Below the pieces are notes generated by a model that saw only the letters and a program-made list of their open reading frames with translations, was not told where the DNA came from and did no database searches. Of a DNA stretch of 64,000 nucleotides, positions 19,086 to 56,770 are shown in pieces. The DNA comes from Ulota crispa (Eukaryota > Streptophyta > Bryopsida > Orthotrichales > Orthotrichaceae): assembly GCA_963920765.1 (NCBI GenBank), contig OY987249.1, positions 17,270,483 through 17,334,482 of the forward strand, read 5' to 3'. The translations under genes were made by a program, and so were the position numbers. Positions within the stretch are counted from its first letter, which is position 1, and every line of letters starts with the position of its first letter.

Positions 19086-20644
19086 ATGGATGATGATGTT
19101 GCACCTCAAGCTCATCCTCTCCACAATATGAATTCCAACATTGGCATTTCACGTGCTTTGCAACAAATTTCAACCATTGCAGCACGCAAAAACGTCATTG
19201 CTTGGATGATTGAGGATGAAGCATTGCACGGCGTAAGAGGCCTTTGCACATGCACGACTGCAACTTTTCCAGTGCATTTTCAAGGACAGAAGAGTGCCAA
19301 CCTCATGAAGACATCAAGGTGGTGGAAATTGCGTGACCAATTCTTCAATGATATTGGTGAAGATTCTAATGTGGCATTTTCTTGTAGCAGAAGCTGTCTT
19401 GGAATGCAAAAGTGGATGCGTACAAAAGTTGTTTTTGGGCGTGGCCACAAACGCTCTGATTGGGTGCAATGGCTTTACCCTAAACTACTTGAAGCATTTG
19501 AAGGGTTTAAAAAATCTGGGGTTAAATTTTTTGCAACTTTACTAATTGAATTAGCACTTAACATATTGTTAGCTTTTGACTCTATATATACTAATCAATC
19601 TAGAGATCCTAAAGATAATGTATTGTTCATAGAAAAAATAGGTCATAGTTGGGTACAACAATTCATGGATGTTCATAACATTGTTTTGTTATCTCAACGT
19701 AGCAGATTAACATGTAGTGTAGAAAAAGAATTAATGATTGAAATGCAAATTGCATTTCATTTAGGTTTGTTGCATAAGGGGTTTCAATTTGGTTCATTAG
19801 ATGAAAATCTAATGGAAAACATTGACGAGACCCATTTTGTTGTCAATATTGACAACGGTTGCACTTCAGGGTTTTGAGGAGATACTTCTACTAAATATGC
19901 TGAAGTAGTTTCAGATGGGGATTCCATGACTATGGTCGTGAGAATCTTTGGGGGACGTTGGGCTACGATAGAAGCTCCAATGTTGATATTTACTAATGCA
20001 AATAGTAATTATCCTATTAGAGGCCTTGATGATGATGTTCCCAGAGTAACCTACAGGACAAGGCCAAAGGGTTGGATGGGCCAAACTCTTTTTTCTTAGT
20101 CTTTTGAAGAACCTCGAGCATTTCAAGTCGATGTGCAACAACGAATTAAAATAGTGTGGGTTGATAACTGCAGCAGTCATAATCTTACTCCAAGATTGAG
20201 AATTGTTTTAGCTAAAAAGCTAACTGTTCGGAACTATTTGTTTCCTTGTTCTACTCACCTACGTCAACCTGTTGATACGTTTATCATTTCAAAGATAAAA
20301 GGCGCTTGGACCAAATAGTGGGAAGCAAAGAAGTCATAGCTCATTCAAGCTAATGCTTGGCAAAACACAGCTCGTGGTGATGGCCAATGGTTTGGTAAGC
20401 TTATCAATCCTGGCAAGAGTTTTTCCTTCAACCGGCTGTTGATAGTGTTGAAGATATTAATAAGCAAGTAGATTGCGATAACATTTCTTATGCTAGAAAA
20501 GCCATGATCTGTTGTGGTATGGCATTAGGTCTTGATGGTTCTTGGAGTATAAACCAACTATTTCCACATCTTCAAGAAATAGTTGCAAAGCATAGGCCAT
20601 ACTTTGAGGGGCAAGATGTAGCTAAATATACTATTCCAATTTAG
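19086..20644 (+). pseudogene. Decayed pogo/Tigger-like (DDE_1) transposase
   Basis: The frame opens at ATG 19086 just after a TTTTTTAG acceptor-like site and runs 263 codons to TGA at 19875-19877. The same frame continues through TAG codons at 20097, 20316 and 20337, then shifts frame near 20,425 and ends at TAG 20642. The conserved triad context of DDE_1 transposases is visible. ENIDETHF at about residues 247-254 gives the first Asp, WVDNCSSHN gives the second Asp, and the stretch ending CSTHLRQPVD gives the third acidic residue with the usual QP-x-D motif. The N-terminal third has basic and aromatic residues (TSRWWKLRDQF, HKRSDWVQWLYPKLLEAF) as expected for a DNA-binding region, but no clear CENP-B helix-turn-helix was assigned. 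At least four stops and one frameshift mean it is inactive. Its TIRs were not found. Confidence 0.75.
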
Positions 20645-21723
20645 ATTTTTTTTTTCACTATATAGAAATATGAAGATTTTTATACTATTTTCTTCATTTA
20701 AAAGTTTGTATGATAAATTTTGCAACACAAATTGTGTGTTTTGGTATATTGATATTTCAATGAACACTTCTATATGTTGTTTTTATATTTGATCAAATTG
20801 TGCTTTTAGTTGTTTTTGTTCTCATTTTTGAGCACTGGCTGTTTTTTTTTTTTTTTTAATATTAAATGCAATGTCAATTTGCAATAAACTCTATTTTTTT
20901 ATTTTATAGAATAATAGACTTGTTTTTACTTTTCAGTTGAATAATACCTTATACATTTGATTTATATGTTTTTATTGGAACCAGTTTATTGATTGAAAAC
21001 ACCTATGGATATGTTTAATTTTGTGCTTTGCATTTGAAGCATCTTTAGGGTTTACTTGAACACGTGTGTAACAATGGAAATGGCTATTTGAGCAGTTTGA
21101 TATTAATTTGTATACTTTGTGATATAGCAAGTTTGCAAGTATATCAAGTTTATGGCTTTTTGCTATGTACGTTCACTATGCTTTAATAAAACATGCTGCT
21201 GTTAAGGTAATCCTTTGATTTCTGGAGAAAATGTTAAATTTTTAGAATTTCTGGACTTAGTCAAGATGACTTCAGTTAGTTATGGTTTCTTTTTCTTTTT
21301 TTAAATCTTAGTTATTTCTCTGTTTGGTTTTTAGTTTTTTGGTTACTTTACCTTTTTATTTTATGCCCATGTTTAGTGACTAGGTCCAATACCCCGGAGG
21401 CTAGAGCACACGAGTTCATGATGACACATCATGAAGCAAAAAATATTTGTCATCCTTTTTTTACATTGATTTGACATAAAATTTGATCTGATATCAATAC
21501 AACATGAATTCCAAGAGCAGATATTTTTATTTACTTTTTTTTTCTTCCATCATTTCATTGATTCAACATTCTTCTATTCCTTGAACTTTGGGAACATTTT
21601 TAACAAAGGTTATCTTCAAAATTGGTTGACATGTTTGTTTCTCTCTTGCAGGTTGAATTTGGGTTTGATTTTATAAAAGAGGCTCAATGAATGGACAGCA
21701 TCTCTAAATCCTTAATTTTGGCT
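20645..21723. other. AT-rich flank of the transposase remnant
   Basis: No gene is seen. Homopolymer runs of T (for example about 20,843-20,857) and ordinary AT-rich spacer follow the transposase. Confidence 0.4.
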
Positions 21724-21725
21724 TA

Positions 21726-22095
21726 AGGTAGGTAGCTTGAAAATTATCACAATAAATGCTAGTCTAAATTTTCAAGTGCTTTTTGAGACAGGAAGACTAT
21801 TTGTCTACTTTTCAAACAAAGAAATATATATGTCCAATGTGACACGGTTGTTTTCATATTTCTAAAGTATTATTGAATTGGTGATGCAATTTTATGTAGT
21901 AGACACCTATTTGTGGGTTTAGGTCTCCCATAAACCATTTCCTTATGGCTTTAAAAGAGATGAGGTGAAATCAAGGAGTATGATTGACTTTTGCAATAGA
22001 ATACACATTTTATTTTATGAACCACTTTATACCTACTCTTCAACCACCTATAGAATGCTTTAGAAGAAAAGAGTCTCAATTTAAGCTACCTACCT
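21726..22095. mobile_element. TA-flanked MITE (AGGTAGG family)
   Basis: TA-AGGTAGGTAGCTTGAAA at the left pairs with TTTAAGCTACCTACCT-TA at the right, an almost perfect terminal inverted repeat. The interior is shared with 16974-17366 and 40708-41082. Confidence 0.75.
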
Positions 22096-22667
22096 TACAA
22101 AAAAAAATCTTTTATTGTGATACCGGATTTTGTGCCAAACTTGGTCACTTAGTAAGTTTATCTAAAAACAATGAATCACTTGTTTGTTGTTTCAATTATA
22201 TTTGATCCTTGTAAACTATAGACATGCTCAAATCCAATTGTTTGCATTTAATATTGTTGTTTTTTTAATCTTCTACTTTTCCCAATGAATTTCAAGCTTT
22301 TGAATTGATTATATGCAAGAAGTGTTGGTCATGGATTCATTGAAGACAAACCAATCTTGAAATGATGGATGAAATGGCAAAGTGAGATATCACTATATCA
22401 ACCTCAATGACTCAGTTGCCAAATATGCTAAAAAGTCAAGATCATGGTTAGACTAACTTAGTTATGCACATATATTGGGCATAGCTTAGTTCAACAAAGC
22501 AAAAAATCTTTGATGCATTAGACAATTTTATAGTGTAGATAGGTTTGTGATGTCTATAATTGCACAATAATGATGTAGCTTGACATCTATAATACATGAC
22601 AACATTATTGAAGATTAAAAATTTCAAGTAAAACATACTTTTGTAATGTAAGAATGATCAACAAATA

Positions 22668-24216
22668 TTGACTTGTCTTGTATTGTGTTTGCAAGAACAT
22701 CTTGAGAGACTTGGCAACGTGGTATGGAAAGATGATTCTATTGGATGGTTACTTAGGCTGATTTTCACCCTGGAGAAGTTTATATCAACAAAAAAGGCAA
22801 GGCAAACACACCATTTTTTGTCTCTTTTAGCAAATAATTCCAGTGGCATGTATTTAATCCAATTTCTTTTTTTTATGTTATCACTTCATACATTTAATTT
22901 TTGAAGGTCCTGATCGAGAGGTCCAAGGAGGGCTTTGTCTTTTTTAAGTCACATAGCAAGTTTCTTTCTTCCAATTCTTTATATTTTTCATCGACAAATG
23001 CAATGTTATGTGACTGCGGCCGGTTTTAATTATTGGATTTTTTTTTGGGTAAGGTAGGAGGCTCTAGTTTCGTTCGGGTTTTAATTAGGTTCAAAGTCAA
23101 GGAATAAGCTAGGGACATATATTTCTTCAAATATTTGTTATTGATGAGTTTAGTAGGCTTAGCAAGTTATGTTAACTAGCTTAATTTGCTAAGCGTACCT
23201 AACTCATCAATCACATTAAAATATATTTGAAGGAACATGTCCCTTGTTCCTAAAATGTGAACATAATTAGAACCCAAATGCAATTAAATCCTCCTACTTG
23301 AGTTGGAGTTTTCCTAAGATGGTTGTTTTTTTGGTGCCAGATAGCACTTTTAGACTACAAGCAAGTGAAAGATATCAATGACAACATCAAGCTTGGTTTT
23401 GCACAACTAATTATAACACTCGCCTCAAGCAACATATGAGAAATTGATCTGTTGTTTTGGTAGGTTGAGAACCTAATTTCCACAATCGGAATTACCTAAA
23501 CGCAAAGGTCAAATCAACGTGTCATTTATGCCAAATACCTTTAATGACCCTCTTAATTCCCAAAAGGTAAAGATGTCCAAGTTGGAACTCATGTTATTTT
23601 GCTTATTTGAGCATTTTATTCTGTTTAGTTTTAGATCAACACTTTCAATTTTTAATTATTTATCTCGAAAAAATCCTGGCCATTATTAATTTTTGGAGAC
23701 ATTAATATGCTTTATTTTGCTTATGTTTGGTGGATTATTGTGTCAAGGATCTTGGTATTGAGATCTCAATTTCTGCAGAAAGTGACCTCAAGAACTTCAA
23801 GACATTTATTTGTTATGATGTTTGAGAGGAAGCTTCCTCCAAGTATTGTCCTGGCAAACCCATTTAATGATGACTTAATTCTTGCAAAAGTTTTTGTACA
23901 AATACTAACACTATTTTCCAATAAATCAAATGTGGTATGTTCATTACTATTTGTTGACTTTTCCTTATTATTATGTAAAAATAAAATGTTAACTTTCATG
24001 ACATATTTGTATGTGGTAACATTATACATGTGCAGCCATTTCTTCAAGGCTTGTTTTACATCTTGCATTCCATACATGTTGCAAAGATTGAGTGTAAGAA
24101 TGGACTCCCCTTTCTCTTCAGTAGAGTTGTGGAAATCTCTTGCCTTACATGCGTTTGCGTATGTTGGCCAATCCTCTACCAAAAACCAATTTCTAACATT
24201 AAATGTAAACTTGTAA
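22668..24216 (+). pseudogene. Unrecognised coding-like fragments, probably a decayed gene
   Basis: Several short stretches read like protein on the plus strand: LERLGNVVWKDDSIGWLLRL and THHFLSLLANNSSGMYLIQ (22,668-22,860), VLIERSKEGFVFFK (about 22,908-22,950), ALLDYKQVKDINDNIKLGF (about 23,343-23,400), and LGIEISISAESDLKNFKTF (about 23,750-23,810). They have balanced composition and some are followed by splice-like sites, but frames are broken by stops and shifts and a MITE at about 23,052-23,299 interrupts them. I do not recognise the family. It could equally be transposon cargo. Confidence 0.3.
23052..23299. mobile_element. TA-flanked MITE (AGGTAGGAGG), near-palindromic
   Basis: The two halves are inverted copies of each other. 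TAGGAGGCTCTAG, GTTTTAATTAGGTTCA, TCAAATAT and TGATGAGTTTAGTAGGCTTA on the left have complements on the right, meeting at about 23,172. Confidence 0.7.
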
Positions 24217-27032
24217 AAAAATTTACTCCCACAAATTACAACAGTTGATAAATAGTGTTAGATTGACATTTAGTGTTGGTAACATTAAGAGGATTGTTGA
24301 CATTTAGTGTTGGGATTTGTAATTAGTATTGCCAACACTAAATACCATAATTAGTGTAGGAAGGGGGTGATTTATTCACCTACCGCCAAGTCTCCTTTCA
24401 AGTGGCGATGATGTCTTTATTGGAGAAGTGACTCGTGGGTGAATCCTTTCAACCACTGTTGTGCATCTAAGTAAAGCCGCTGGTTTAGAGTGTTTGTGTG
24501 CTAGAAGTTTAAAGAGTTTTAGGTGTCTGTATTGAAGATGGGCTTTTGGGTTGATTAGAATATGAAAGAGTTTAAAATTTAGGACTTATTGTTAAATTTA
24601 TTAAATTATTAATCATGTTATGAATTTATTTTCTTACGTTTTAGAACTTGACAGGCTTGATGTTCAAGTGATATTTCTAATTTCCTTTTACATTTTGGCC
24701 ATGTTGTTTTGTGTTTGTTTTTTTTGTTGCAACATCTTTCTTTGAGAGCATTTATAGAAGGTACGATTTCATTCTTTAAATTTATTAATTTCTATATAAT
24801 AAGATTGTATTGTATATCCTATTCCATCCAAAATTCATGATGTGTATATTGAAATTTTTATTGTTAGGGCTATTATTTGACTACTTTTAATGCTTGATGA
24901 TCATTAGTCATATTTAATATAAGCCAATTTCCACTATATTGTAAGGATCTTAGGGTTCAAAAAATGTGTAAACTTCAAGTGCGAAGTTCAATCATTTTTT
25001 GAGACCTTGATTATTATTTCATAGACACATTTAATCACACGTTTGATACTTGTACCTTCTTTGTAGCGTCTAAAACATACATTATCTCAAATTAGAATCA
25101 ATTGTGAGGCAAACTAAATAACTAAAGGTTTCAGCTCGATTTCGGAACTGGTTTTTTTAGAGATTAATTGTAATAAGTGTCGAGCTATCAACATTCTGCT
25201 CTTTTGCATTTAAAAACATGGCGGTTGTTGCATTTAGATTCTTTGATGCAAATTTGTTTATAATGGTTATATATATTCAATACTGTAATGAGATTCTTTG
25301 GTCTCAAATTGCAATTCAAAACTACTAAAATTTTCACTTAAGTATGCTAAACCATAGAATACCACATACAGGGCTGAATTTAGGGACAAAGACATAAAAT
25401 TGTTTATGATTGATTTATTTGTAGCTTTTACTTATGAGATGTCTATATGTATACAATTGTACAAACGTGGTGTGGTACAACCATGTCACTAGTGACTTGA
25501 ACATGTTTGAAAGAATGTATTCAACCTTGTAACTGTTGTGTTGCCCTTTACATCCCAATCTCAAAGATAAAACATCAACATGTTGACATAACTATTATAT
25601 ATTTACACAATAATATTTTATGGTGGTATTCAAAGTAATAAACAATGTGATCACCAATCAATTAAGAAATGAATATATTTCAGTTTAAAAATTCAAATCT
25701 ATGGTGAAGACGCTAGTGTATAGCATGGTGTATAGTAAGCAGTAGCGACTGTTTTCAATGCTAACAGAAAGCATGAGGAAAATCATGTGATTGGATGAGA
25801 TGAATGTATATGTATTAAGTAGAGATTAAGGTTAAGGTTTTATGTAACCTGATTTTATAATGAATATTTAAAAAAGTGACATTTCAATAGAACTTTGATA
25901 TCATTCACTACATTTCTTGTGAATTTAAAGTTGTAAGTGAACAAGGGATACACTCCACCTGTGTTTTATGGCAGAACCATGTTGTACGCTCAATTTTCAA
26001 AATAAAACTCTATTTTAGTATTTCAGAGTTTAGAAATCATTGAGAATTAATGATAGCACATAGTAAAATTATCCAGGGTTTACTTGTTATAGTGAATTCT
26101 CTAACATGCTTTCCAAATTGATAAACACTGAACTTTGAAAACTTTATTTTCATATGATGAAGTTTATGGATAATCGACATTATATACTTATTAAGAGAAA
26201 TAAGAATATATAAGAATTTTTTGTAAATGAACGAATTGTGATTATTTTGGTACTATACAGTATATGCAACTTTCAATTTTTGTTTATATACCTCAGTTGT
26301 TGAGTAAAACAAGTCCCTTTCCACAAATTTCAATGCACAACTACTGTAGGTTTGTAAGTTCATCTATAGTGACATTGTATTTAACAAACTTGGATGAGTA
26401 TTGTATCCTAATATTTTATTTGCAAATAATTTTCAATTAGAACCTCAGCAATTTTTTGGATACGAATGTGTCTTTTTAGATGTTCACCGAGCATATTTAA
26501 AAGTACATGGAATATTTTTCTTTTATGTAATTGTAACAATAGGAATTATAATGACTACAAAACTTGGTATTCATAAGTGAGACAATCACGTGATATATAA
26601 GTTCAAGGTGACATACAACTAATTAGCACGCTGTAGGGTTTAGGGAATTATTCAAGGTTAATAATGCAAATACAATCACATCCAAGAGTGTACAAACATC
26701 ATGATTGGTTGTTTACTTGGAATATTGTTCTTAGGAAGCACACATGATGCTTACAAGTATGGCAAGAAGTCTAAAGGCGTTACATTCATATCATTCTAGT
26801 AATCCAAAAAGTATTGCGACTATGTATTAGTTTTATTGATGGCAATGAATGCACAAAAATGTACTTGTCGACCCAATTTCATGGAAACCTTCAAAGATCA
26901 ATGTGGTTCGTATTGGCATTTTGTGACTTTTGATATTTTATGCAAATGTAGCCACAACACTCTAAATCAGATATTTGAATGTCCATGTACGTCTTTGGGA
27001 CGCTTGTGACACTTGTCTGTATATCAATATAG
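24217..27032. other. AT-rich spacer, no gene recognised
   Basis: About 2.8 kb without an exon chain. A small cluster of CATTTAGTGTTGG direct repeats lies at 24,255-24,320. The rest is low-complexity AT-rich sequence. Confidence 0.45.
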
Positions 27033-30000
27033 AAATCCCTAAGTGGTGCAACTCGGGTAGAGACCGTAAATCCAACCTCAGAAACGACTATAAGCGCTTG
27101 GCTTGAAGGTGGTGACAATGGAGAGGAACAAATTGAAGTTCTTGATGTTGGAGACGACAATGACTTTAGGCTTACAGAGAACGACCTCCGACGTCTTCAA
27201 AAGATTGATGTTGTTGCCTCAATTACAAGCTTGATGATGAAGCTGGAAGACCTCTCCTGCTTCCGCATTCCCTTGTGCAGGCTTGTTCCCATGCCCATGG
27301 TGAGACCCACGTTGATGTGCAATCTGGTGAAACTGGAGCACGAATTTGTTCATGGGTATCGTGAGGGCTCGCAAGTTTTCTATGTTTCAACAACGAACGA
27401 GGTTGGAGAAATGGTGGAGTTCACTGCTGAAGAAATGGCTGGTTGGAGCTCCCATTGGAGGAGTGAAAATGACAAGTTCCTTGCTTATATTGAACGGCAC
27501 ACGGAGCTGCATTTCTTGAGGAATGCAAAAAAATTGTATGCGATGGGAATCATAGGAGATTGGCGTGGATGAACCACATTTCAAAGCTGCATACTCATGA
27601 CTGAGCTTGGCATATTTCGGTAGACTCAATCGTGCTGGAGACCGTAGGGCGGATGGAGCTTGTTATGCAAGTGATGCATGACATTAACAAGTGAGTTGTT
27701 ACTTCGTGTCCTCCTACCCGACTAATTCTGTATTTGCGTGTGCATGAATCACCCTATCCGTACAATATCTAGCGTTAACTGATGACGGTTATTGTTCATG
27801 AATTGTAGGCACACCAAGGATTCACATGTAACAATGAATTTGGTGCACATCTTGTACCAGGTACAGAAGTGTGGCGTTTTGCCGATGGAAAAGTTTGCCA
27901 AGCTTCACCTGCTTGTTGCCTTGAAACGCTATGGAACGACCTCGAGTAGGAAAAGTTGGTATAGCACGCCAGTTGAATTGTTGACCTCCTTCATATTTCA
28001 TGTATGACTTGGCCACCCCACTTGAACTTTCAAAGGATGCTCTAAACCATGTTTGTGTTTGCCTGCCTTGATGCTTTTGATCATTGTGCTGTAGATTTTT
28101 GTGCATGTAACAAGAGATTGTTGTAGCAGCAGACGATACTCTTCGCAAGTATCACAAAAAGACAATGGATGATGATAAATGTGAATTTGGCATTGCCAAT
28201 GCCATGTTTGTGGGGGCAAAGGAGAAGGCCCAGAAGTTATGTTTGAAGATGGTTTGGCTTGAGGCAGTTGCAAGTCCCAACAATGGACAGGGGTTTCTCA
28301 AAGAGGTGTGACCAAAGACCCAATGTTTTGTTCTCTTGTGTTGTTATGGTCCGTCATGTCTCTCTAATCTTGAGTTTGCTATCTATTGCATAGGTGGAAA
28401 GACATTACAATTCGAATGAGGTGCCCGAGATGACCCTCAAGAAGCTGCAGATTGTGACTACGTGCAATATGTCATCTTATCACAAGATTAAGTTCCTCAA
28501 GTGGTGGAATTCTTCAATGCCGTCACGCAATGCAAGGCGGTTTTCCCCGAGGCTAGTGTCTGAGGAAAAATTGAAGACATTTTTGAGCAAATGCGTTTGG
28601 TACGCTGGGGTAAGTATTTTGACATTTGTACTCACAATGGGAAGGTGTATTCTTGTTTTTTTGTTTTTTGTTTTTGTCACGGTTGATGTTGATGGTATCT
28701 TGGAGTATGACGGATTTCTAGCTGTTGGCATTATGTTCTCAAATTGAAGACGCCGCCCTTATGTATTATAAGGATATTATCAAGGTGGACCACATCAACG
28801 TCGATATGAATGTTCCCATGGAGCCAGAGACTCTTGCGGAGTACACTGAAGGGTGGAGAAGGAAGATATGGGATCATGGATTCACGCCTTACTTCAAAGG
28901 GGTGCAGTCTTCAAGAGAACTGACAACTTCACAAATTTCCAGGATTCCGACCGAGCGATTTGTAGAGTTGTCTTTTGGTGAGATTTTCTCTGTATGGTTT
29001 TTTGTATCAAAGTTATGGAGGCATGCAATTTTTACTTTTACTTACATCCTTATTGTCCCTAAACCTTGCAGAGTGACTTGTCTCTTTGTTTGAGAGCCAC
29101 AAAGATAATCGGGCTAGAGATGCATGAAGGCGAACACTTCTAAATCCTATGGCCACAAGGGTGATTGTTGTTGCTTGCAAGATACGCCAATTCCTAAAAC
29201 CTTAAACATTTCCGTGGGTGTCGGATTTATCCATAGGTGCCACTTGCATGTGAAGCTTAGGGGTTGCGTATAAAACCAACCCTAAATCCTATCTCCCTCA
29301 TTGAGATTCTTAGATGGTACATTTGACCCTAATACTACCGATGGCAGATTTTTGCGTCACGTCGTTTTCATGGATTTGCTTACCAAAGTTGACACTTTGT
29401 TTTTGTTGTGTAGCTATATCAAACACAAGCTGCTGGCCAAAAAAGCCATAAGTCGCAAAGATCTTCCTCCTTTCTTATCAATGTGGCATGATTTCGGTTT
29501 AGTAGATTGTATGTACACTCTAGCTCAGCTTCAAACCTACACAACTGCCCATCTAGCGAGTGGAGGGTGGTACCTAGATTGTACTATTGACTTCACCCAC
29601 AATTTGGAAGTCCAATTGCACAAGTCTTGCAAAGATGTTGGAGAGGTGGACTTGGTGGTCCATGAGTTTGACGACTTGGATGAGGTGGCAAAATCTAAGG
29701 TCATTGCAAGGAGGACGACTGGTGATAAGAAGAAAAAGGCCCAAGAGATTGCAATTCAAGAGCAAAAGGTAGCTAGGGAAGCAAAGAGATTGGCAAAGGC
29801 GGGAGAGAACGGGAAGAATGAGAATATGAGGTCCAGTACTAGATGAAAGATGGAAACTCCAGGTGGTGAGCTTGGAGTTTTGCTCTCCTTGGTGGATCAA
29901 GGATCTCACATGCAAAGTGACCCCGTAGGGGTTTGAAACGGAAGGCATTAATGGACCCATTGGCAGAATTTGATCTATTTGATGGATTTGACATTTATGG

Positions 30001-31513
30001 CAAAATGGATGTTGTTCCTTTTGACGAAATGTGCAAAATGGAGTTCCTTCTCAACTTTTCAATCATTGATATTGTTAGGGACATGAAAACCATTGGTCTT
30101 AATCCATATATGGAGGTGATGGATTTCTTGAAAAATGTATTTGGTGCACACTTTTTTTGATTTTGAAGTTGGTAGTTTCCATGCGTGGTGACAAAATTGT
30201 CCTATGTTTTGAACTCGTTTATCCACAACATTGACTTTGCCTTTTGTCTTGTTGTATTTTGTGGACTTCAAAGTTTTCAAACAAAAGAGACCAATTGCCT
30301 GGCGGTTCAAAGAGGATCAAAAAGGCTGAGGTCGACCTCATCTTGTTTGATTGCCAAGAAAACTTGCCTGTTCCTAGTGTCTCCGAAACACAATCCGATG
30401 TCCCTGATTGGAACTACGATAAGGGTCACAAGATGATTCATGCGGCTTTCTGTTTTGCCGCGGAGCACCTTTAAGATCACAGTGCAATCATTGTTGTTCA
30501 TGCTCACTCTACCGATTCCAAATCTGTCATTGCCAGACTTTGCATCACTTATCGCATGACGATAAAGAAGGAATGGTTAGGCGTCAATTGCCTACACTTG
30601 ACCTCGTCTTTTGATGTCTCTTCTACAGTAAGCTTCTTCTTACCCTTTTATTATGATTCAATTCATTGTGTTGGTCTCCCCAATGCTTCCCTTGGTATTG
30701 AGTTTGTTGTAATGGATTTTGCAGACTCAAAAGTTTGGGATCACTTTGTTGGTGAAAAACCTTGGCAAGAAGCGGACATCCAATTTCTGTCTCAAATGTT
30801 CTCCCACGATGGAGAAACACGCATTGAACGTTGGTTGAAATGACGTGATTGTGAACCCCATCTTGGAAGATAGGTGGGCCATGAATGGCACCAAGCCGTG
30901 GAGAGGACCAAGGGAGAAGGACCCTCGATTTTACCAACTTCTCATCGAAGCGGCGTCAGGCAAAAGAGATGTTATCATTGACTGTACGGCTTCGACAGAT
31001 ACGATTGTCATTGTTTTTGTTATTGTCCACCATAAACCCCCTAAATTTTATTTTCATGGTTGATTGAGTCACTTTTCTCTATTACCAAAGTTCCATTATG
31101 TTTACAGGTGCGACAATTATTGCTTGCCGTCGAACGGGTCGCCATATATTGACACTGGAAGAAGATGGCAAAATATTTCAGGCCTTGCTGAAACCAATGA
31201 TGCCAATCAAACATGAGAAGGAGGAGCCGGCTCTAATAGCAACAACTGCGCAAGACCCGAATGCTATAATGGTTGAACCGAATTTTTTGCAAGAATCTAC
31301 GCAACAAGTAAGTTTCTCTTGCGATTTTGTAAATTTGCAGTCCATTTTCATGTCATGGGAGCTTTGTGCTGATTGTTTTGCAAAAAAATTTACTTGATGG
31401 AAGTTGTATTACAGGTGACGAAGATGGAGGAGAAGAAGAAAAAGAAGATTGAGGAGTTAGCTCGCCTCCCTCCGGAGAAATGCGGATGCAAAGACGAGAT
31501 GATGCATTGGTAG
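27033..31513 (+). pseudogene. Decayed multi-exon gene: ParB/Srx-like domain joined to an N6/N4 DNA-methyltransferase-like domain
   Basis: Exons can be followed by sense and splice sites at about 27033-27690, 27809-28001, 28117-28305, 28394-28609, 28722-28977, 29301-30130, 30272-30627, 30725-30998, 31108-31307 and 31415-31513. Exon 1 has FRIPLCRLVPMPMVRP, FYVSTTNEVGEMVEFT and, after a frameshift in an A-run near 27,530, a DGNHRRLAWMNH motif typical of the ParB/sulfiredoxin fold. A charged linker follows (KKKKAQEIAIQEQKVAREAK, about 29,733-29,790). The C-terminal part has VDLILFDCQEN at the motif IV position, then KPWRGPREKDPRFYQLLIEA, VIIDCTASTG and ATIIACRRTGRHILTLEED. This is the order of beta-class N6_N4_Mtase enzymes, with motif IV first and motifs X and I last. 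The last exon encodes a Lys-rich stretch and PPEKCGCKDEMMHW. Damage includes stops near 27,601, 28,560, 29,844, 30,472 and 30,837, frameshifts in exons 1, 4 and 6, and a mutated donor at 30,999. Retained introns exclude a processed copy. Family calls are by motif and need a search. Confidence 0.65.
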
Positions 31514-32172
31514 TTGTGGTAACTATTAACACCTGTGACCACTGTACACGAGAAATTGATTGAAGCATCACGCAGAGGAGAAACGGTGGAAGTAGAAGAG
31601 ATGCTGGTCAAACACCTTGTGCGTGGGAAGGGTCCTTATAAGTTTAATACCCTTATTCTTCTTTTATTTCTGTATCAACAATTGCTCCATTTGGTTTTGC
31701 TTGCCACTTCTCATTTGAGTGTGAGTGGGTGCTGCTATGCGACACGTTAGGAGAAAAGGTTCCTCACTAACTTAGATTTTGCTTCACTCTATCTCATAAC
31801 TTAGTGTCTCACTGGCTGCTGCTTCTTTTCCTTTCCGATTTTTTATTTTCGTGTCTTTGGCTGTTGCTGATCGGTAATTAAGTGGAAGAGGTCCAACTGA
31901 GGTTTTCTAATTTCTGGTCCTCTTCTTCATTCACGTGACAGTTGCAAGGAAGCATGACTTGTCCGCAGCTTGTATGCAGTTGGCATTAATATTTTTGGCG
32001 GCGCATGCAAGCTGATGTGAGGCGCTCTTGTCTTCAAACTTAGAAAAGAATTCTGCTGCATTGTTTTGAATTAACGGAAGGATAGATGGGGAAAATTAAA
32101 CTAGCACGGATTGTCGGAAGGGAAATTATGGCTGCATCAGCAAGTGAATAAGTATGAGGTTCGTATCCATAC
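31514..32172. other. Spacer of moderate composition, no gene recognised
   Basis: Contains CT-rich and TTTCTTTTCC tracts and a CACGTG at about 31,934, which could belong to a promoter, but no downstream coding exon was found on the plus strand before the next repeats. Confidence 0.35.
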
Positions 32173-32232
32173 GGAGATTATTTGGGTTTACTAGGTAGTG
32201 CGCTTACTACCTAGTAAACCCAAATAATCTCC
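32173..32232. repeat. Perfect 27-bp hairpin with a 6-nt loop
   Basis: The left arm, starting GGAGATTATTTGGGTTTACT at 32173, is exactly complementary to the right arm ending at 32232, with loop GCGCTT at 32,200-32,205. All 27 pairs are matched. Such exactness suggests recent formation or selection. It could be a tiny foldback insertion or a small-RNA precursor; the sequence alone does not decide. Confidence 0.85.
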
Positions 32233-32234
32233 CT

Positions 32235-32272
32235 GTTAGTACATCGTTGCATCGTTAGTACATCGTTGCATG
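32235..32272. repeat. Exact 19-bp direct duplication
   Basis: GTTAGTACATCGTTGCAT is present twice head to tail directly after the hairpin; the units differ only in their last base. Confidence 0.8.
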
Positions 32273-32788
32273 AGGATGCGGAGTAAGTTATCAACCTCGC
32301 GGATGTTGAATTGCATGCCCTGGTGACGCCTGTATTAAGCCTTCGGATCACAAGGTATTAATTTTCCTGCTCATGAAGGAGATCGGCAGTTCCTAATTAA
32401 GATAAGTCTCGGAGATTAGTATGGAATTATGTTGTTCATATTCGAGAAAAAATAGATGCAAAGCTTTGTGTTCTTCAGTTTGTAAAAAGCAATCGAGCCT
32501 TAGCTTTCGGCGATTTGTTGAACTGCTCCCTTAATTGCTCCGTTGCTCGTGAGTTAAGCAAAGATTTCTGGAGTTATGATTTTGGATGTTTTGGGAGAAT
32601 TTAGTAAGTCAGATAGCTAGTAGCAGTTCAGGTAAGCCAAATTCTGGTGTCACATAATTTGTTTGCAGCTGCGGTTATAGCTGCCACCACGCAGCTTATG
32701 CTCATCACCCTGGTGCTGGCTTTGTTACTTTCGGGTACGAAGACTTCTTTCAGTGATTACAAAAGTTGTTGGTAGTTCGTGTCAAAAG
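32273..32788. other. Spacer, no gene recognised
   Basis: No open frame or repeat boundary of note. Confidence 0.4.
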
Positions 32789-33135
32789 CATATAGAATGT
32801 AGGGAAAATTTCATGGATACCACTGAAGTTCGCAATAATTTCATAGTTACCTCTGCTTTTTCAGAAATTTCACAGATACCCTTGGACCAACATTTTTAAG
32901 CGTATTTTTTGTTGTGCATGCCACTTTCCTTTTTCCTTGTGCGCACTTGTAACAAGAACAAGAAAGAAGTAGTGTGTGCACAAAGGGAGAAGAGAAGTGG
33001 CATGCACAACAACAAAAAACTCTTGAAAATGTTGGTCCAAGGGTATCTGTGAAACTTCTGAAAATACAGGGGTATCCATGAAATTTTTGCGAACTTCAGG
33101 GGTATTCATGAAATTTTCCATAGATTCTATATATG
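32789..33135. mobile_element. Long-hairpin MITE with TCATGGATACCCCTG sub-repeats
   Basis: The two halves are near-perfect inverted copies (arms of about 150 bp), meeting near 32,960. Each arm holds a short tandem unit of the form AAATTTCATGGATACCCCTG. Ends read ATATAGAATGTAGGG and the near complement TAGATTCTATAT. Confidence 0.75.
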
Positions 33136-33700
33136 AACTTCAATGGGTTCATGCTTGGCACGACCTTGTGTTCGCAAAATTAGTAGCAATCCCGTTTGCT
33201 TGTGATTTTTCAGCAAATATTTTTGTAAATGTCAGTGACTAGGGCCGCAAGATATAAATACCTATCTCCCTTGAGTTTGCTAAGTCTTAATGTTTGGTGC
33301 CGTTATCCGAGAATTATTCATAGATCTGGTGAAGGATACAAGCAAGGATGAACGTTAGCCACGGGGTTAGCCATGCCAGATTAGAGAGTAAATCAATTGC
33401 AATTGCTGCACTTTTCATTGTTGGGATGTTTGTTGCAAGTCGCTATGGAATGATCTTATTTTGTACAGATTCTCAATTGCAACATCTTGTCAAAATTACA
33501 ACAAGAAAACAGGGTGCGCTGTTTTGATTTTGCAGCACTAGCTCTATTATATCGCTGTAGATCATTTAGCAGAACGTCATCAATGAAATCCTTGCTGGCG
33601 ATTTTGCCATTTTGCCAACGTGCTCTCACTTGATTGACCAACACTGTTAACACGCAAATGTGAAAATTTAATTCAACTAAACACGAGCTATCCACTACGT
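33136..33700. other. Spacer, no gene recognised
   Basis: A 79-codon minus-strand frame at 33,456-33,695 has no recognisable motif. Nothing else is visible. Confidence 0.4.
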
Positions 33701-34352
33701 CTACACTGAGTATTGCATTTAGATTGCCTTAGAGCATCTTCTGCCATCTGTCAAATGAAGCCCATGGAAACTAGGTTTGGAGGGGAAGGGAGCAGCAAGT
33801 AGCGCAATAGGGTGTAAAGTTCTCTTGGAGTGCAAAAGGTTTCAAGGCCTGTACCTGTGCTAAAACAAATCACATTGGTACATCTAGCTAAGCAGAGTGA
33901 ACAGTGCTTGGCGGGACTGTGAAGGGAGTTTGGAGAAACCTTGAATTTGATGTGAAAGTGGCTAAACCTTAACGGCCCCGCTCTTGCACATTGACTAGTA
34001 CAGTATTATTGGAGACTTGAATTGCAAAAGCCGTTACAGGTGGAACGCAAAGGGCTCATTTGGCAAGTGGCAAGAGTGCTCTTACCTTGGAAAATTACCT
34101 CATGACCCATCATTGGCCACTTGAAGCCGTTGGAGGTACAAACAACTCTCTAAAAACTTGGATTTCACATGGTATAGATCTTGGAATTTGCTATTTTGTT
34201 GTTTTGGAATTTTGTTGTTGTTGTTAGACCTTTTAAAATTTATTTATTGTAGTAGTTATTGATGAAGATTACTGTAGCATCAAGAAATATTCAAATAGTG
34301 TGAAATTTCAAGAAATTAGTGTGGGGCAACATGAATGCAATATTTAGTGTAG
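33701..34352. mobile_element. MITE with GCATTTAGGTTGCC ends, copy 3, with a nested insertion
   Basis: The left end is CTACACTGAGTATTGCATTT and the right end is its near complement GCAATATTTAGTGTAG. The right interior matches copy 2 at 7516-8023 (GGATTTCACATGG, TTGATGAAGATTACTGTAG, ATTAGTGTGGGGCAAC). The left part is interrupted at 33,732 by a Harbinger-like element. Confidence 0.7.
33732..34081. mobile_element. PIF/Harbinger-like MITE nested in another MITE
   Basis: Starts TTA-GAGCATCTTCTGCC and ends GCAAGAGTGCTC-TTA. The duplicated TTA and the uninterrupted copy at 6893-7206 (GGTTACTTTACCTTG at the equivalent point) define the insertion. Confidence 0.65.
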
Positions 34353-54861: not shown

Positions 54862-56189
54862 ATGGTGTCCCTCATGCGCCAGCTGCAGAGCAAAGCTGCC
54901 GTGGCGACAAACATTGCCACCAAGAGCGGCTTGGCTTTCTACAAGCAGCTCAGCAGAGCCTTTAGCTGGCGAACCTATTCGGTAAGTGTGCTTACACGCA
55001 TTTGTGTGCTCGGTTTGTTGAACCAGCTCTAAGGATAAATTGTTTGAGTACCTCTTGCATATAATTGTCCTGCATGCATGTGCATGCAGTAAAGGTTTGC
55101 TAGGGTTTGTGTGCCTCCACTTAGCTACTTCTGTTGTGGAGCGTCTGAACGTGAGATCACAGTGTCCGTAGTTGCATGCCAATTGTTCATGCAAGCTCAG
55201 TAGAGATTTGCTAGGATTTTTTAGGATTTGGTTTTCTAGGGTTTAGTTTTCTAGAATTTGATTTTCTAGGGTTTAGTTTTCTAGAATTTGGTTTTCTAGG
55301 GTTTTTTTGGGTTTGTACGTGTCTTAGAACTTAGCGACTTTTTTTGTCGTGGAACTGGAACCTCCGATTACATTAAAACATGAGATCTCAACGTCCAGAA
55401 TTGCATGCCAACCGTTTATGTCTAATAACCAATGTCAGCCTTTGGCTGTTGAGCGGTTGAAGACATTCTTTTCAATCGAATGTCTGGCATGCTCAGGAGC
55501 GAAGTAGTTCCAGATAGAATAAGCCTTTCTCAGCTCATAAACGTTATCAATCAGTGGAATACCGCTTAAAAAAAGCATTTACTCATCAAGGTTTGACATT
55601 ATATAACGTAGAACCCCATATTCGATCAATATGAGTTGTCAGCTATATATGGAGTGTATCTGGACTTGGTTCAGATACGCTCCATATATAACTGACAACT
55701 CCATATTGATCGAATATGGGCTAGTAGCCTAGCTATAGAAAAGTGATTTTTCAATACCTACAATTGCAATATCTGCCGTAGGGTTCGTCAACTAAGGGGA
55801 GTTTAAGTGCAAGCGGTCGTTCAATGTGTTCCACATGCGGTGACGTGAGCACGAACGAAGAATCGCCTACAGAAACCTCGTCTTTCCCGAAGACCGCCAA
55901 GATTAAGATTCTGAACATGGACAACATGGATAACATGGATAGCGTTGCCTTTAAAATTGAGAAGATTGAGAAGAATAGCCAGACTCCGACACTGATGAGT
56001 TTGCCACCTCCTCCGCCAGTAGCTGGGTACAAAGGGGCAATGGCACGATCAGGGTATTCCAAATTTTCCATCCTGGAACTCCAGGGACCCGACGCAATAG
56101 GGTACCCCAAACTTTTCCCTTTGGTACTGCAGGGACTTGATGCAACAAGGTACCCAAAAACTTTCCCCCTTAGAACTGAGGGGACCTGA
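54862..56189 (+). CDS. Candidate chimeric gene: ATP synthase subunit g-like exon 1 plus unrelated exon 2
   Basis: Exon 1 (54862-54981) encodes 40 residues with no acidic side chains. MVSLMRQLQSKAAVAT and ATKSGLAFYKQL closely resemble the start of the plant mitochondrial ATP synthase membrane subunit g (LQSKA-x-x-AT...KHG-x-YYKQL). A strong donor, GTAAGTGTG, follows at phase 0. The first in-phase acceptor leading to a long frame is CCGTAG at about 55,776-55,781, giving exon 2 at 55782-56189 (135 codons). Exon 2 is Ser/Thr-rich, then KTAKIKILNMDNMDNMD, then MSLPPPPPVAGYKG, and it runs into the 48-bp minisatellite before a stop. Nothing after KQL resembles subunit g, so the gene would be a capture or recombination product, or a real unknown gene with chance N-terminal similarity. 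The model assumes one 800-bp intron and is untested. If translated, mitochondrial targeting is plausible. Confidence 0.4.
55216..55312. repeat. TTTTCTAGGGTTTAG tandem repeat
   Basis: About three irregular units of TTTTCTAGGGTTTAGTTTTC with TAGAATTTG spacers lie in the presumed intron of the candidate chimeric gene. Confidence 0.75.
55615..55720. repeat. Near-perfect ~48-bp hairpin with a 9-nt loop
   Basis: The arm starting CCCATATTCGATCAATAT at 55615 pairs with the arm ending at 55720, with one bulged base, one mismatch and one position that would be a G-U pair in RNA. The loop is GACTTGGTT. It sits in the presumed intron of the candidate chimeric gene, 61 bp before exon 2. It may be a small foldback or a small-RNA precursor. 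Confidence 0.8.
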
Positions 56190-56770
56190 CACAACAGGGT
56201 ACCCCAAACTTTCCACCTTGGAACTCCGGGGACTCGACGCAACAAGGTACCCCAAACTTTCCACCTTGGAACTCCGGGGACTCGATGCAACAAGGTACCC
56301 CAAACTTTCCACCTTGGAACTCTGGGGACTCAACGCAACAAGGTACCCCAAACTTTCCACCTTGGAACTCCGGGGACTCGACGCAACAAGGTACCCAAAC
56401 TTTCCACCTTGGAACTCCGGGGACTCGACGCAACAAGGTACCCCAAACTTTCTACCTTGGAACTCCGAGGACCCAACGCAACAAGGTACCCCAAACTTTC
56501 CACCTTGGAACTCCGGGGACCCAACGCAACAAGGTACCCCAAACTTTCCACCTTGGAACTCCAGGGACTCGACGCAACAAGGTACCCCAAACTTTCCACC
56601 TTGGAACTCCGGGGATCCGACGCAACAAGGTACCCCAAACTTTCTACCTTGGAACTCCGGGGACCCAACGCAACAAGGTACCCCAAACTTTCCACCTTGG
56701 AACTCTAAGGGCTTGATGCATCAGTGTATTCCAAATTTTCCACTCTAGAACTCTGGGGACTCAATGCAAG
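56053..56770. repeat. 48-bp minisatellite, about 15 units
   Basis: The unit begins GGTACCCCAAACTTTCCACC and continues TTGGAACTCCGGGGACTCGA and CGCAACAA, 48 bp in all. Because 48 is a multiple of three, long frames cross it in several phases on both strands. One unit near 56,390 lacks a single C. The outermost units are more diverged than the inner ones, as expected for arrays homogenised by unequal exchange. The open frames over this array (up to 203 codons) are consequences of the period and are not called as genes. Confidence 0.95.

Follow-up and report, generated by a model that had tools for sequence, protein, structure and literature searches.

A decayed ParB-like/methyltransferase-like gene of a DNA transposon family in the moss Ulota crispa

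The stretch at positions 27033–31513 of the window, by which we mean the whole 64,000 nucleotides of Ulota crispa DNA analysed here (assembly GCA_963920765.1, contig OY987249.1), is a decayed multi-exon copy of a gene that belongs to a large family of DNA transposons in the moss's own genome. The gene joins a ParB-like part to one resembling the beta-class N6/N4 DNA methyltransferases (MTases). It belongs to a terminal-inverted-repeat (TIR) DNA transposon, with inverted terminal repeats and target-site duplications, in which a second gene, probably the transposase, runs on the opposite strand. A reading made from the letters of the sequence, the sequence-only reading, had presented the stretch as a gene remnant in a plant genome; transposon gene is a better name than plant gene. 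We consider it very probable that the stretch is a truncated, mutated relic of one of the two genes of this transposon, and that the accessory protein of the element binds the element's own DNA, probably without methylating it in the canonical way.

The transposon family and its two genes

All genome searches were made in the window's own assembly (274.8 Mb). With the 27033–31513 stretch as query there were 45 genome matches (40 of 48 candidates having been scored) and with the motif peptide 41; the long exon, for which the homologous exon of one copy, L011, served as query, gave 121 matches at 114 merged loci. Twenty copies were fetched for comparison and aligned with the window copy and two further loci, L034 and L036, to a set of 23 sequences, and our statements on selection and motifs rest on these, out of the 114 loci. 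A ParB-like and an MTase-like part of at least 40 residues each occur together in 16 of the 20 fetched copies, the exceptions (L023, L015, L016 and L026) being shortened or truncated at the edge of the fetched locus, and the divergent locus L036 has the same exon order. A further, N-terminal exon lies 1.5–2.5 kb upstream in 13 of the 20 copies and is weak in L026. The established multi-exon family that the sequence-only reading had postulated is thus real, and a single chain of exons comprises both parts. The intact members that it expected elsewhere did not turn up: stops or frameshifts were detected in 22 of the 23 sequences, and L036, the sole exception, is covered in only 597 of 1092 alignment columns.

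The transposon nature of the family is seen from its ends. In 13 of the 20 copies, a conserved stretch ends sharply some 330–550 nt beyond the last exon piece, and a fourteenth copy (L028) shows the same end with four mismatches. The 21-nt motif of this right end has 84 sites in the genome at up to two mismatches, and the left-end motif has 76, compared with a single site for each control; 44 of the 76 left ends have a right end of like orientation no more than 35 kb downstream (at 2.8–30.8 kb), and no such pair was found in either of two control arrangements. The left end reads CAAC(G/A)AC(G/A)CTAGCG... and the right end ...GCTAGCAACCCTG, the two forming short and imperfect inverted repeats. 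The only full element read, that around the copy L013, is 14,312 bp long and flanked by an exact 9-bp target-site duplication. Five further right-end sites were read, with gene fragments at four and the end alone at one (L061). Three of these, extended to the other end, proved to be elements of 5.3–6.0 kb at unlinked places, 87–94% identical over kilobases; in such short (5–6 kb) elements both ends are preserved and the ParB-like/MTase-like gene is reduced to fragments, and all three have GAGCTTGTGAGCC-type subterminal repeats inside both ends. Exact target-site duplications flank all four elements read at both ends (9, 9, 9 and 10 bp), the longest match in 12 mismatched pairings being 2 bp.

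A second gene lies on the minus strand in the left half of the L013 element (locus L065), in the form of broken open reading frames (ORFs), and the ParB-like/MTase-like gene occupies the right half on the plus strand. A 248-residue piece of this partner gene has 133 matches in the genome, merged to 110 loci, and at 67 of the 114 long-exon loci a partner locus lies upstream within 25 kb on the opposite strand, at a median distance of 7.7 kb; the other arrangements are found at none (upstream, same strand), none (downstream, opposite strand) and two (downstream, same strand) of the loci. A partner match also flanks L036 (C8:9977543), and a second, divergent group of loci, about 21–39% identical to the query exon, is in part paired with the partner gene as well; the element lineage is therefore old and diverse. 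Because of the element ends, the duplications and the pairing of the genes, we take the partner gene to be probably the transposase; its cysteine-rich C-terminal stretch and CxxH-like spacing presumably point the same way, without profile support. Two database matches of the partner gene were set aside, Peptidase_M48_N (E 0.00017 and 0.0027, below its cut-off) and CG32412 in the PDB (E 0.32). Spread by transposition, which the sequence-only reading had suggested as a possibility, is supported by the ends and their ordered pairs, the exact duplications and the constant pairing with the partner.

The copies have decayed after a period of selection on the protein. The 99 stops detected in the family comprise 57 TAG, 31 TGA and 11 TAA, and 37 of the 60 stops that could be placed in the alignment stand at Q, W or R columns, as expected from C-to-T or G-to-A changes; the pattern would fit the decay of methylated cytosines. 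Among 20 hand-picked pairs of copies, the ratio of nonsynonymous to synonymous substitution rates (dN/dS) had a value in 12, the other eight being saturated; with dS reaching up to 1.96 the ratios are rough, lying at 0.14–0.32 in 11 pairs and at 0.59 in the twelfth. The low ratios show that, during the divergence of the copies, selection on the ParB-like/MTase-like protein was mostly purifying.

The two halves of the proposed accessory protein

Scans of single exons against profile libraries gave nothing above the curated cut-off, and the exon translations of the 23 sequences were therefore merged before profile comparison. The reference sets consisted of 11 phage and bacterial beta-class MTases and eight ParB-like proteins. 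With hhalign, the MTase region (18 of the 23 rows) matched the beta-class MTases at 96.4% over 200 columns, with motif IV and motif I in register, and eight other targets gave at most 0.5%; over all pairings, the next highest values were 3.2%, for the ParB comparison, and 1.7%. With both sides reversed, the MTase pair still scored 94.6%, as true homologues should. In a simple hidden Markov model (HMM) built from these 11 MTases, 12 or more of the 23 rows scored better than any of 483 control sequences, shuffled or reversed (best values 4e-8 and 0.69), these scores being less clean as whole-sequence sums of several weak pieces, many of them outside the MTase region. PF01555 has seven matches in the genome, none of them above the cut-off; two belong to the family and lie at its motif I end. 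Scores were lowered here because the exons were searched apart. A methyltransferase PHROG matched the last MTase-like exon of the window weakly (E 0.02), in agreement with the MTase reading, and a comparison of our queries A2 and A3 with the PDB gave nothing useful. Overall, homology of the C-terminal region to the MTases has clear profile–profile support.

The catalytic tetrapeptide, on the other hand, is replaced. Motif IV of the beta-class N6/N4 amino-methyltransferases is defined as [DNS]PP[YFW], and PP[YFW] is present in none of the 20 rows readable at this position: the motif reads DC(P/L/Q/S)(E/K/D) in 16 of them and DFLE, DYPE, GCLE or DMLD in the remainder. Motif I likewise differs from its usual glycine-rich form, in a region that is split by an intron and uncertainly aligned. 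The methyltransferase identity given by the sequence-only reading is supported by profile similarity but not at the catalytic tetrapeptide.

The evidence for the ParB half is of a different kind, consisting of a motif and of matches that stay below threshold. At the centre of the DGxHR-type motif, NH is found in 21 of the 22 readable rows, eight of which have the exact DGNHRR. A simple HMM of the ParB-like proteins placed three of the 23 rows ahead of the best of 483 controls (0.068, 0.075 and 0.82 versus 0.98). Other database matches of the family, set aside as inconsistent with the remaining evidence, were DUF1639 (E 0.06) and the PDB entry 9s6c, annotated as quinoprotein amine dehydrogenase-like (E 0.002).

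The copy in the window

Between 27033 and 31513, the gene runs on the plus strand from the DGNHRR motif through a middle region and a charged linker to a C-terminus in the order of beta-class methyltransferases. By tblastn, the ORFs at 27039–31319 have counterparts in up to 20 of the 20 fetched copies; the family HMM places pieces of the window from ~27063 to ~31205, in the order found in the other copies within the limits of each 10-kb locus; and the intron positions coincide with those of the other copies. The sequence-only reading had traced just such a broken gene and has held up well in this respect, save that we count nine exons with family support, against its ten, and that the basic stretch at the end of the range, from ~31416 to 31513, is without counterpart in the family alignment or the HMM chain.

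The ParB/Srx-like exon (27033–27690) is supported by tblastn matches to 19–20 of the 20 copies, by HMM pieces and by a common intron after the residues NK, with a donor GT at 27691; it is frameshifted near 27.53 kb and interrupted by an in-frame stop at 27602–27604. The DGNHRR motif (27542–27559), seen in the sequence and as a column of the family alignment, stands in a different frame from the preceding ORF because the exon is frameshifted. The middle region continues in exons at 27809–28004 (20 of 20 copies, and splice sites), 28111–28308 (13 of 20), 28394–28606 (19 of 20) and 28737–28975, the last of these frameshifted and found in 19 of 20 copies and as two HMM pieces. An interrupted long exon (29394–30139) holds the end of the middle region and the charged linker (~29680–29819); its first part has counterparts in 17 of the 20 copies and 29924–30142 in five, and it is among the 121 genome matches to the homologous L011 exon. 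Three MTase-like exons follow. The one at 30319–30627, with an in-frame TAA at 30472–30474, contains the motif IV position (30349–30360), where DCQE stands in place of DPPY; its two ORFs recur in 12 and 15 of the 20 copies, and its identity draws on the hhalign match of the family region. The exon at 30725–31012 (WRGPREK...DCTAST) carries the first half of motif I and is found in 14–15 of 20 copies and with profile A3, and that at 31108–31319 carries the second half (GRHILTLEED) and is found in 10 of 20. Altogether, the copy has at least three in-frame stops and two frameshifts. The last exon of the family was not found in it by the family HMM, the alignment or the genome-wide search, nor was the N-terminal exon of the other copies found in 20001–34000 of the window or in L036. 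The window copy is an old truncated relic, assigned to the family by its coding sequence.

The surroundings contain other repeats. At 32173–32232 lies a perfect inverted repeat whose 27-nt arms are 6 nt apart, and a larger one at 32790–33132 has arms of 119 nt that are 88% complementary and 105 nt apart, perhaps a sequence like a miniature inverted-repeat transposable element. A 48-bp unit forms a tandem array of 14.8 copies at 56059–56769. About 180 nt at 24184–24362 are 91% identical, on the opposite strand, to sequence downstream of the copy L022 and beyond its element end, and are probably another repeat.

Interpretation and relation to known systems

We propose an element of two genes that point apart, the probable transposase gene on the minus strand of the left half and the ParB-like/MTase-like gene on the plus strand of the right half. 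The second gene would encode an accessory protein, about 1,100 residues in length, that most likely binds the DNA of its own element through the ParB-like and MTase-like folds. The GAGCTTGTGAGCC-type subterminal repeats would be a plausible target, and the benefit may be that the element stays expressed or mobile despite silencing. As the catalytic tetrapeptide is gone, binding would be expected instead of canonical N6/N4 methylation. A bolder version of this proposal is possible, though we hold it only tentatively: the transposase would lie outside the tested superfamilies, and a selected, catalytically dead MTase, joined to a ParB-type clamp on the terminal repeats, would shield the element from silencing, acting in this land plant as a protective factor of a partition-like kind.

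Several observations weigh against this picture. Flanking terminal repeats, for which the sequence-only reading had advised looking, are present on the elements of the family but not at the window copy, where no element end motif was found within five mismatches and the TIR and duplication evidence is thus missing. Neither was a remnant of the partner gene found in the window (best tblastn E 0.09), so that membership of the family rests here on coding homology, and dS of the window copy was saturated in all six pairs. Across the genome, 47 of the 114 loci have no detected partner, and no Pfam match marks the partner gene as a transposase. A 9-bp duplication by itself would fit the Mutator-like superfamily, but none of the 74 genome matches to the Mutator-like element profile (MULE, PF10551) lies closer than 10 kb to any of the 133 matches of the partner exon, and the same is true of the two matches to the KDZ superfamily (PF18758), one of them above the cut-off; both superfamilies were rejected. 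The KDZ match above the cut-off is at C152:16677–17060. In the full L013 element, the GAGCTTGTGAGCC-type repeat is present at the right end only. The ParB half of the fusion announced by the sequence-only reading fared worse than the MTase half: PF02195 has no hits in the genome; the ParB region (21 rows) reached the said 3.2% with hhalign, which was the highest of its nine comparisons, with the DGxHR motif in register, yet not significant; and the DndB, DGQHR, DUF1015 and ParB-like PHROG matches, each to one of eight members, were sub-threshold (E 0.056–0.15), though they agree with a ParB reading. The unrelated Pfam models Imm63 (E 0.0031, one of eight members) and DUF6909 (best 0.028, two of eight) outscored those of ParB type; both were set aside as inconsistent with the remaining evidence. 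DndB is handled as a ParB-superfamily protein in PMC10853773.

Other explanations have to be weighed against an accessory, DNA-binding protein. The gene could encode an active-type DNA methyltransferase with which the element marks its own DNA (N6-methyladenine, 6mA, or N4-methylcytosine, 4mC) through a non-canonical motif IV, a role already proposed for algal transposons; in its favour are the conserved MTase fold and the prediction of 4mC or 6mA synthesis for published algal relatives (PMC12477816). We regard this as unlikely, given that PP[YFW] is absent from every readable motif IV and that motif I, with the uncertainty of its intron-split alignment, is off its usual form. Alternatively, the protein may not be accessory at all and instead form part of the transposition machinery; its co-inheritance with the partner gene and its mostly purifying selection would agree with such a role, which is made distinctly unlikely by the 5–6 kb elements that retain mere fragments of the gene, so that the protein is at least dispensable in cis.

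Capture of host genes is known from plant DNA transposons, and a domesticated or horizontally acquired host family might have been picked up by chance and copied along with the transposon. Pack-MULEs are mentioned in PMC12477816. However, the two genes are paired in one order and orientation at 67 of the 114 loci, among them loci of the divergent group, and a separate host copy was not identified in the moss's own genome, to which the search was limited (other plants lay outside it); chance capture is, in our view, very unlikely. Least credible of all is that two unrelated neighbouring genes were read as one, a possibility that the sequence-only reading itself had named. Although none of the known profiles spans the protein from end to end, the exon order from the ParB-like through the middle to the MTase-like part recurs from copy to copy, with common intron positions.

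The combination of a ParB-like and a DNA-methyltransferase fold has already been described from algal transposons and phages. The closest parallel to the two-gene element is Sola1-1_Ec32 of Ectocarpus, a giant DNA transposon with a 1,104-residue protein that has ParB-like and N6/N4-MTase domains and is encoded on the strand opposite the transposase (PMC12477816). The likeness, one of architecture and not of sequence comparison, lies in the domain pairing, the length and the orientation; unlike the moss gene, that of Sola1-1_Ec32 comes from a brown alga and a Sola-1 element and is predicted to make 4mC or 6mA, whereas the moss element has 9–10 bp duplications, a partner not recognised by Pfam and a replaced motif IV. 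ParB/MTase proteins of green- and red-algal transposons are reported as similar in the same paper, which cites Iyer et al. 2011 and Petroll et al. 2025, and are likened here by that description only. ParB-CTPase/N6_N4 methyltransferase fusions known from phages (PMC12704722) have the same domain pairing and are phage genes; a pattern scan and tblastn (A1 and A3 in viral contigs, A1 in genome contigs) found no close bacterial or viral relatives. Other eukaryotic transposons likewise carry genes of DNA-modification type, with other enzymes and in other element classes: TET/JBP genes in fungal DNA transposons (PMC12730594) and DNMT genes in retrotransposons (PMC5890265). For the working model, a functional parallel may be seen in VANDAL transposons, whose anti-silencing protein VANC, a different protein, binds repeated motifs in the non-coding DNA of its own element and counters silencing (PMC5735166; PMC10398659). 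Among the papers listed in the literature searched, which leaves out most subscription papers and Iyer et al. 2011, no report of a ParB/MTase transposon in a land plant was found.

Transposon-borne ParB–methyltransferase genes, described from algae, are now placed in a plant genome, on an element whose ends, target-site duplications and partner gene are defined. Without this context, an annotation might enter such copies as ParB or methyltransferase genes of the host that came from bacteria. The absence of the catalytic tetrapeptide from all readable rows sets binding apart from methylation and makes the proposed role in self-protection of the element testable.

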